From contig NZ_OCMS01000001.1 of the NCBI RefSeq assembly GCF_900215325.1, forward strand, positions 1,054,001-1,118,000: 64,000 bases of DNA, read 5' to 3'. The notes beneath the pieces are model-generated. The model was not told where the DNA came from. It made no database searches and saw only the letters and a program-made list of their open reading frames with translations. Position numbers and translations under genes: made by a program. Origin of the DNA: Fibrobacter sp. UWB16. Its GTDB lineage: Bacteria; Fibrobacterota; Fibrobacteria; Fibrobacterales; Fibrobacteraceae. Below are positions 31,436 to 35,726 of the stretch, piece after piece (the first letter of the stretch is position 1; each line of letters opens with the position of its first letter).

Positions 31436-31463
31436 ATAAAAAAAGGCTCGGAAACCCGAGACC
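31436..31463 (-). terminator. Terminator of small-protein copy 1
   Basis: On the minus strand GG(T)CTCGG, loop GTTT, CCGAGCC with one bulged T, followed by seven T. It lies about 30 nt after the stop codon. Confidence 0.75.
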
Positions 31464-31493: not shown

Positions 31494-31556
31494 TTAGGCA
31501 CGCTTAGCGTACTTCTTAAAGCTCTTGATCAAGAGGGCGGCGAGAATGCAGTACAT
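31494..31556 (-). CDS. 20-residue cationic small protein, copy 1 of a tandem pair
   Basis: The frame encodes MYCILAALLIKSFKKYAKRA and then stops. The first half is hydrophobic with one Cys at residue 3; the second half carries five Lys/Arg and no acid, so it could lie in or on a membrane. AAGGAG is 8-9 nt before the ATG. A sigma-70-like promoter (TTGACG, 17 nt, TAATAT) stands upstream and a terminator downstream, so it is a complete one-gene unit of about 120 nt. A second copy 264 nt away encodes exactly the same peptide, and the four differing bases are all synonymous third positions (ATC/ATT, AAG/AAA, CGT/CGC, GCC/GCT), which is strong evidence that the peptide itself is selected. No known family is recognised; type I toxin, membrane-acting peptide or regulatory peptide are all open. 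Confidence 0.82.
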   Translation of the reverse strand: MYCILAALLIKSFKKYAKRA

Positions 31557-31586
31557 TGTTTTTGACTCCTTGTTTTGACGGCGCCA

Positions 31587-31615
31587 ATATTAACAAAGTT
31601 TTACTAACACGTCAA
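31587..31615 (-). promoter_or_regulatory. Promoter of small-protein copy 1
   Basis: Minus strand TTGACG at 31615-31610, spacer of exactly 17 nt, TAATAT at 31592-31587. GGCGCC follows near the predicted start of the RNA. The layout is conserved with copy 2. Confidence 0.75.
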
Positions 31616-31687
31616 GGTAATTTAGTATATATTTCGGCAACTTTTTTGGACATTTCGTCCATACCAAAATGTCGCCCCGCTCTTGTC

Positions 31688-31732
31688 ACCCCGGCTGGAG
31701 CCTGCCCCGGACTGGTTCCGGGGTGCCGGGGT
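31688..31732. repeat. Nested GC-rich palindrome between the small-protein copies
   Basis: Outer arms ACCCCGGC/GCCGGGGT enclose inner arms CCCCGGA/TCCGGGG. This is the shape of an interspersed intergenic repeat; a smaller related hairpin is at 47198-47226. Confidence 0.5.
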
Positions 31733-31749
31733 CGCCATACACATCTTCA

Positions 31750-31780
31750 TAAAAAAGCAAAGCCACGGAAATTCCGTGGC
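31750..31780 (-). terminator. Terminator of small-protein copy 2
   Basis: Minus strand GCCACGGA, loop, TCCGTGGC then TTTGCTTTTTT, about 40 nt after the stop of copy 2. Confidence 0.8.
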
Positions 31781-31820
31781 GTCGCGTTCGTTAGTTGGAG
31801 AGAGAAAAATCTTTTTTCGA

Positions 31821-31883
31821 TTAAGCGCGCTTAGCGTATTTCTTAAAGCTCTTAATCAAGAGGGCGGCGAGAATGCAGTACAT
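31821..31883 (-). CDS. 20-residue cationic small protein, copy 2 of a tandem pair
   Basis: Encodes the same 20 residues as copy 1 (31494-31556), differing by four synonymous third-position changes. The region before it is also conserved with copy 1: GTTAGTAAAA in the promoter spacer, ATTGGCGCCGTCAAAA at the transcript start, and the segment GTCAAAAACA-AGGA-GTCAAAAACA-ATG, in which a ten-base repeat frames the Shine-Dalgarno site. The 3' flanks differ, each with its own terminator, so the duplicated block is promoter plus gene. The promoter here is TTGAAA, 17 nt, TATCAT. Function unknown. Confidence 0.82.
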   Translation of the reverse strand: MYCILAALLIKSFKKYAKRA

Positions 31884-31914
31884 TGTTTTTGACTCCTTGT
31901 TTTTGACGGCGCCA

Positions 31915-31943
31915 ATGATAACAATTTTTTACTAACGTTTCAA
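31915..31943 (-). promoter_or_regulatory. Promoter of small-protein copy 2
   Basis: Minus strand TTGAAA at 31943-31938, a 17-nt spacer and TATCAT at 31920-31915. Confidence 0.75.
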
Positions 31944-32224: not shown

Positions 32225-34048
32225 ATGAAACGATTTTTGCTTTTATGTCTCGGTTTAACAGCATTTGTAAACGCAAAGCCATCTCTTCAAGTCGATAGCG
32301 ACCGCATCGAAGCGGGTCAGACATTCAATTTGCAGTTCATCGTTCCAACTCAGGAACTGCCGCAGAACAGAGGCGCGCTCCGCCTCGAAACACGCAACAA
32401 CTTTAAGCTCCTCGGGCTCGACAGTGCCGATCAGGTAATGCGCCCGGACATGGACGATATTTTCAACTCGTTTTTCGGCGGTGGTGGAAGAGCCTACAAG
32501 GCTCGCGTCTATTCTTTCAAGATTAAAGCCCCGAAAAAGACGGGTACACAAGACCTCGGAACGCTTACCTGGATGATTAACGGTGAAGCCAACACCATCA
32601 GCAGCAAAATTCCGGTCAGCGTGCAGCGTTCCTACAACGATGACGCACTCGCCGTAAGCCTTACCCCGAGCAAAAAGTCCATTTACGAAGGCGAACAGTT
32701 CAGCGTCACCCTCAGCCTCCACACTTTTGAGCATTTCCAGGGCGGCCTCCAGGCCACCGACATGAGCACCGGCAATGATTTCATCGTCCACCGCAACGAC
32801 CTCTCGAATCTGGATTTCAAGCCAGTCGAAGGCGCCCGTCGCGAAATGAAGGCATCCGCCAAATACGCATGGCTCAGCCCGACCAAGAGCGGTACGCTCC
32901 AAATTCCGTCCTTCAAGTTCAAGTACACCAAGCTCGGTGAACCCAAAGTTGTCGAAGAAAAGAAGCAAATGGGCGGCATGTCGTTCTCTAGCAGAAGCGT
33001 TAAACAGGAATCCATCGAAACGGAAACCTCCACCGCCCCGCTTTCCATCACCGTACTCCCGCTCCCGACCGAAGGCAAGCCCGCCGATTTCTCGGGAATG
33101 GTCGGTAACTACAGCTTTAGCGCCAACTTCGACCGCACAAACCTCAAGGTCGGCGAAGCATTGACACTCGCCATCAGCATCAAGGGCGACGGCACCCCGG
33201 GTACCATCACGGACCCGAAACTCCCCGACTTTAGCGAATTCCGCTCTGTTCCGCCCGAAAACAGCATCAACAAGAAGGTCAAGGGCAACAAGGTCATCAC
33301 CTCGAAGGATATCAAAGTTTTCCTCTACCCGAAGAAAAAGGGAACTTTCGAAATCCCCGCCATTACATATTCCTGGTTCAACCCAGCTAAAAAGAAATAT
33401 GAAACCACTTCGGCAGGCCCGTGGACTATCGAAGTTGAAAAGAGCGATGCCCCCGCAGAACCTATTTATCAAGCTCCGGTTTCCGCAGGCACTGGCACCT
33501 CGGCTCCTGTCGTTCAAAAGCAAGAAATTGAATTCCTAGGCAGCGACATCCGCTTTATCCACCCGATTACGGACAAGTCCGAATCTAGCGCCCCGCACAG
33601 GAGCGTGCTCTTCTGGATTCTGTTTGCAGCAGCGATTCCGTTCTACCTGATTGTGAACTTCGCCATCACACGCAAGCGTAAGCGCAACAGCAACACAGCT
33701 CTCGTCCGCAAGGGCAAGGCCAACAAGCTGCTCAAGGAAAAGTTCGCGAACGCCCGCACAGCCCTCAAGAACGGCGACGGCAAGGCTTTCTTCGCCGCAC
33801 TTGAAAACGGCCTCATCGATTACCTCAGCAATTTGACGAACGTCGAGTTCAAGGGCATGACCCGCCCGCAAATGAAGCAGGAACTTTCAAAGCGTGGCGT
33901 CAAGGAAGAAACGATTGAAGCCATCAACAGTTGGCTTGAAAAATGCTCGTTTGTGCGTTTTGCTCCGGTCACAGCATCGACCGAAGAACAGTCCCAAATG
34001 CTCGCAGATGTCGAAAAGCTCTGCGAAAGCCTCGAAAAACTCAAGTAG
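32225..34048 (+). CDS. batD: BatD-like protein (aerotolerance/Bat operon, membrane-anchored)
   Basis: A 607-residue protein with a signal peptide (MKRFLLLCLGLTAFVNA), a long extracytoplasmic region of beta-sandwich repeats (about 20-460), one membrane helix near 465-485 (SVLFWILFAAAIPFYLIVNF) and a cytoplasmic tail of about 120 residues. The pattern SLTPSKKSIYEGEQFSVTLSL and FSANFDRTNLKVGEALTLAISIKGDGTPG is characteristic of BatD (DUF11-like Ig repeats). Bat proteins were linked to aerotolerance in Bacteroides and Leptospira, but their molecular role is not settled. Usual partners BatA-C and MoxR are not in the window; BatE follows 13 nt later. The ATG at 32225 was chosen over a longer frame because it starts the signal peptide. 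Confidence 0.85.
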   Translation: MKRFLLLCLGLTAFVNAKPSLQVDSDRIEAGQTFNLQFIVPTQELPQNRGALRLETRNNFKLLGLDSADQVMRPDMDDIFNSFFGGGGRAYKARVYSFKIKAPKKTGTQDLGTLTWMINGEANTISSKIPVSVQRSYNDDALAVSLTPSKKSIYEGEQFSVTLSLHTFEHFQGGLQATDMSTGNDFIVHRNDLSNLDFKPVEGARREMKASAKYAWLSPTKSGTLQIPSFKFKYTKLGEPKVVEEKKQMGGMSFSSRSVKQESIETETSTAPLSITVLPLPTEGKPADFSGMVGNYSFSANFDRTNLKVGEALTLAISIKGDGTPGTITDPKLPDFSEFRSVPPENSINKKVKGNKVITSKDIKVFLYPKKKGTFEIPAITYSWFNPAKKKYETTSAGPWTIEVEKSDAPAEPIYQAPVSAGTGTSAPVVQKQEIEFLGSDIRFIHPITDKSESSAPHRSVLFWILFAAAIPFYLIVNFAITRKRKRNSNTALVRKGKANKLLKEKFANARTALKNGDGKAFFAALENGLIDYLSNLTNVEFKGMTRPQMKQELSKRGVKEETIEAINSWLEKCSFVRFAPVTASTEEQSQMLADVEKLCESLEKLK

Positions 34049-35670: not shown

Positions 35671-35726
35671 AAACACATTTCTCTCTCCAGAAAATGTTTA
35701 TAACCTTTTATAAATATAAATAAACA

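Follow-up and report, generated by a model that had tools for sequence, protein, structure and literature searches.

A 20-residue peptide gene conserved across Fibrobacter and preceded by a promoter of the ribosomal RNA type

The window, a stretch of 64,000 nucleotides from Fibrobacter sp. UWB16 (contig NZ_OCMS01000001.1), carries two copies of a gene for a 20-residue peptide. Judged from its homologues, the gene is kept almost unchanged across the genus Fibrobacter. Its promoter is built like that of ribosomal RNA, and growing cells therefore probably make the peptide in large amounts. We consider it probable that the gene encodes an abundant, growth-coupled, membrane-associated housekeeping microprotein. 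The original prediction, made from the letters of the window, had described both units; new here are the rRNA-type promoter, the linkage to batD, a conserved CU-rich tract on the 3' side and the orthology of the upstream (U) and downstream (D) copies. Fibrobacter is one of the main degraders of cellulose in the herbivore gut, and to our knowledge little is known about its gene regulation. Literature searches turned up no paper on Fibrobacter small proteins or on mapped Fibrobacter promoters.

Two copies of the peptide gene

Two minus-strand frames in the window, copies D and U, both translate to MYCILAALLIKSFKKYAKRA. Each copy possesses its own promoter and its own terminator, and at 63 bases the gene lies under the usual annotation limits. 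The locus comprises the following features (basis in brackets):

31447..31460, minus strand: copy D intrinsic terminator stem, then T run (scan)
31494..31556, minus strand: copy D (downstream, malQ side), 20 codons MYCILAALLIKSFKKYAKRA and stop (translation, orthologues, U/D tree)
31557..31579, minus strand: copy D predicted 5' leader with Shine-Dalgarno AAGGAG (sequence, aligned leaders)
31580..31586, minus strand: copy D GC-rich discriminator TGGCGCC, the same as at rRNA operon promoters
31587..31615, minus strand: copy D promoter TTGACG-17-TAATAT, extended -10 (TGn) (scan; 17-nt spacing kept in 79 units)
31762..31780, minus strand: copy U intrinsic terminator stem, then T run (scan)
31798..31805, minus strand: copy U CU-rich tract TCTCTCTC in the stop-to-terminator interval
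31821..31883, minus strand: copy U (upstream, batD side), identical 20 codons and stop (translation, orthologues, U/D tree)
31884..31907, minus strand: copy U predicted 5' leader with Shine-Dalgarno AAGGAG and exact GTCAAAAACA direct repeat (sequence)
31908..31914, minus strand: copy U GC-rich discriminator TGGCGCC
31915..31943, minus strand: copy U promoter TTGAAA-17-TATCAT, extended -10 (TGn) (scan; 17-nt spacing kept in 79 units)
32225..34048, plus strand: batD, the conserved divergent neighbour (Pfam PF13584, E 9e-25; synteny)

The two frames (63 bases each) differ in four codons, namely ATC/ATT, AAG/AAA, CGT/CGC and GCC/GCT; translation and codon comparison confirm that the peptides are identical and all four differences synonymous, as originally predicted. 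The scan likewise recovered the sigma-70-like promoter with a 17-nt spacer and the terminator described for each unit. The copies had been called tandem: both are real, but they do not abut and lie 327 nt apart from start to start (repeat spacing 327-328 nt). The repeat unit shows 91% identity over 94 nt, comprising frame and leader, and then 78% over the promoter. In relatives the leader drifts in length and sequence while the frame stays. The ten-base direct repeat noted at the Shine-Dalgarno site of the second copy is present and exact in copy U, but is not conserved in relatives. A transcription start about 7 nt past the -10 element would put the 5' ends near 31580 and 31908, and not at 31585 and 31913 as first proposed.

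Conservation and selection

The peptide was found in 65 of the 80 Fibrobacter genomes by tblastn (E <= 10) and in 70 of the 80 with a profile built from 20 peptide variants (E <= 2e-8). Among 40 near-complete genomes it is present in 37; since the remaining three (G011, G038 and G041) appear to be without it, the gene is not essential to the genus. Across 57 distinct 20-codon frames, 6, 6 and 18 of the 20 columns are variable at codon positions 1, 2 and 3, respectively, with a pooled pN/pS of 0.14 (57 distinct ORFs). Met1, Tyr2, Cys3 and Ala6 are invariant, the divergent forms MYCLIAALVIMNQKKRFRKSRA and MYCLLAYLVIKQLKSGKALI included, and L5, L8 and K11 are near-invariant across divergent forms. 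The occurrence of homologues in 70 of 80 genomes, together with the codon-position bias, excludes chance. A translated small protein under purifying selection, the central claim of the original prediction, is strongly supported by this breadth of occurrence, the third-position bias and the low pN/pS ratio. A broken frame accompanied by a conserved leader, set beforehand as the refuting observation, was seen in none of the units read.

Searches were extended beyond the genus. In 88 genomes from other genera of the phylum the best match to the peptide profile was no better than E 0.045, and small frames upstream of batD in other genera, judged by eye, included no related frame. Pfam, NCBIfam and PDB searches with the peptide gave no match, and phage and plasmid searches no homologue.

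Locus and duplication history

In nearly all loci read the peptide gene precedes batD (Pfam PF13584) and is transcribed away from it. The neighbour on the opposite side is malQ-like in the clade of the window and another gene elsewhere, identities besides batD being assigned by eye. On the batD side the locus stays the same as the other neighbour and the leader vary; in G027 and G029 the gene is relocated. The tandem pair occurs in the clade closest to the window, an F. succinogenes-like clade. Seven of the 14 pairs encode identical peptides, with one to four synonymous differences, and the other seven show one to five nonsynonymous changes between copies. In a tree of unit sequences, some U nodes of which are weakly supported, the U and D copies cluster by position and not by genome (D clade of 13, support 0.99). 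One duplication therefore preceded the radiation, and by this grouping U and D are separate ortholog groups, both conserved and both under purifying selection. The sequences point to a single locus next to batD, passed on vertically, with one duplication event in the F. succinogenes-like clade. We note that in G043, G052, G061 and G066 (L268, L269, L267) the full batD is flanked by one or two additional, truncated copies of itself; these are about 400 residues long, 49-55% identical and stop-terminated.

Promoter class

The peptide promoter has the form CCTTGa-N17-TGTTAatATTGGCGCC. The consensus of the 79 units with 17-nt spacing is cCCTTGa..cgttaGTAAAa.tTTGTTAa.aTTGGCgC, in which GTAAA, the TTA of the -10 element and TTGG vary little or not at all. 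Of the 168 phylum genomes, 61, every one a Fibrobacter, contain the spacer/-10 pattern GTARRWNNTTGTTADHHTTGG; among the places listed it is found only at peptide loci, and the spacer motif was rejected as a regulon marker.

In the window's genome TWNNATTGGCGCS is found nine times. Two of these sites are the peptide promoters, two lie just 5' of 16S rRNA, as Rfam RF00177 confirms, and five have no promoter context. The pattern CTTG-N19-22-TWNNATTGGC has 13 occurrences versus one for the reversed control. Two are the peptide promoters, two belong to rRNA operons and one lies directly 5' of tRNA-Ser; the other eight fall within coding frames or at the start of a gene. At promoter positions, this core grammar is found in the genome only before the peptide copies, the two rRNA operons and tRNA-Ser. 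The peptide promoter thus resembles those of the Fibrobacter rRNA operons and tRNA-Ser in its CCTTG -35 context, its spacing and its TWNNATTGGC -10/discriminator, and strong -35 and -10 elements with a GC-rich discriminator are common to the peptide and stable-RNA promoters of the same genome. It differs in driving a peptide mRNA and in a spacer with an invariant GTAAA (79/79). The combination CCTTG...TATAATTGGC is also present at rRNA promoters of other Fibrobacteraceae.

GC-rich discriminators mark ppGpp-repressed, growth-rate-controlled rRNA promoters in enterobacteria (PMC3293720). The rRNA-like promoter with its GC-rich discriminators therefore makes strong growth-coupled transcription of the peptide gene likely, and by analogy the promoter may be under ppGpp and growth-rate control in Fibrobacter. 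If this is true, few strongly expressed conserved proteins would be shorter than the product of this 20-residue core gene with its rRNA-class promoter, and the grammar common to peptide and rRNA promoters would serve as a sequence rule by which growth-coupled promoters of the phylum could be recognised. A promoter ending TTTTTATCATTGGCGCCG, located 5' of a pyruvate-kinase-like gene in L116 (G038) and L117 (G041), resembles the peptide promoter; both genomes are apparently without the peptide.

Proposed function and alternatives

The peptide is hydrophobic in residues 2-10, followed by a Lys/Arg half. Residues 9-20 have a helical moment of 0.78, making the C-terminal half amphipathic if helical; the moment of the whole peptide is unexceptional (reached by 10% of shuffles), and the hydrophobic run comprises only about nine residues. 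A housekeeping microprotein would arise from these parts as follows. The monocistronic unit, with its rRNA/tRNA-class promoter (consensus-like -35, extended -10, GC-rich discriminator) and intrinsic terminator, would be transcribed strongly and in step with growth rate and ppGpp, as is rRNA, and efficient translation would allow the peptide to build up during growth. Its composition suggests a membrane location: the Met-Tyr-Cys start and the hydrophobic first ten residues may enter the inner membrane or rest on its surface, leaving the Lys/Arg half on the cytoplasmic face. There the peptide, present constitutively, could assist or modulate a membrane or membrane-bound translation machine rather than act as a stress-induced toxin.

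Enterobacterial proteins of the MgtS, KdpF, CydX and AcrZ class are short, possess one hydrophobic stretch and a charged end, and are mostly missed by annotation. The Fibrobacter peptide is alike in shortness, single hydrophobic stretch and charged end, but has no sequence relation to them in Pfam or NCBIfam and is encoded behind its own rRNA-class promoter, outside any operon with a partner. A more far-reaching proposal, which we offer tentatively and hold to be rather doubtful, is that the shared stable-RNA promoter class couples production of the peptide to that of ribosomes, that the peptide acts, in proportion to growth, on ribosomes or on the machinery of membrane insertion, and that the 3' CU tract adds a regulatory function at the RNA level.

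That the transcript base-pairs besides encoding the peptide, for example via its CU-rich 3' tract, appears unlikely. Known dual-function sRNAs such as SgrS/SgrT and RNAIII/delta-haemolysin are short transcripts made from a strong promoter that contain a tiny frame and finish at an intrinsic terminator, and the peptide unit has the same architecture. Of 81 units, 49 retain the CU tract in the interval from stop to terminator (three or more CU repeats in the 60 nt next to the stop), but it is lost in all D copies and in several clades. Codons 2-5 are nearly invariant at the nucleotide level, even at third positions (TGC in 57/57 frames, CTC in 56/57 and ATT in 51/57, versus ATT for 51% of the Ile codons in genes of the window), and 12 nt complementary to the CU tract of copy U lie, on the minus strand, at the ribosome-binding site of a gene for a serine-rich lipoprotein (35680-35688; 35677-35690). 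Against a pairing role, only one of the 20 perfect complements GGAGAGAGA of the CU tract in the genome is found at a ribosome-binding site, before a plausible gene start. Therefore no target set is evident, and a regulon in which the tract acts as an sRNA seed against Shine-Dalgarno sites was rejected. Moreover, across 32 aligned transcripts the terminator is the sole stem with compensatory changes, and nucleotide conservation is mainly coding.

Of the three functions originally offered, the peptide may have a membrane-acting or a regulatory one, whereas promoter, locus and leaders disfavour the third, a type I toxin whose membrane-depolarising peptide is blocked in translation by an antisense RNA; we regard it as quite improbable. 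The ldr and ibs loci occur as duplicate copies, which the tandem pair recalls. Type I toxins have under 60 residues, are hydrophobic and have a cationic C-terminus; the peptide's composition fits all of this and includes a cysteine (PMC8309996). Compared with Ibs, Ldr, Fst, AapA1 and TisB, the peptide is thus alike in size, hydrophobicity, cationic C-terminus and duplicated copies, but differs in its growth-type, rRNA-class promoter, its strong leaders and its core vertical inheritance at one locus in 70 of 80 genomes. The predicted 5' leader is short in the window and drifts elsewhere (about 25 to 104 nt, with sequences differing between clades), and the 32 aligned transcripts contain no conserved leader structure hiding the ribosome-binding site, although the Shine-Dalgarno site is predicted to be no more than moderately accessible (median 0.55). 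Inspection of the longer leaders by eye found no conserved upstream ORF, and an Rfam search of the window gave no match. No conserved antisense promoter was noticed; a plus-strand scan of the window gives two weak promoter-like sites.

A constitutively made secreted or surface-active peptide (phenol-soluble-modulin-like, signalling or antibacterial) would suit a duplicated, cationic, partly amphipathic sequence (C-half moment 0.78) that needs no leader, but is very improbable given that no export or immunity gene adjoins any locus read and that divergence is very slow, while such peptides usually diversify fast.

Two kinds of repeats were observed in passing. GC-rich or recurrent intergenic elements resembling dispersed repeats are found at 31640-31750 of the window and 3' of many peptide terminators elsewhere, with ccggggtgacaag... 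and ttaatcgaagtt...cggcggtagggggtgaaacc recurring at several loci. G000:C5:5561-6138 contains repeated CTCTCTC...GGAGAGAGAGGGATGGGAC units within a short stretch, apparently a local repeat array.
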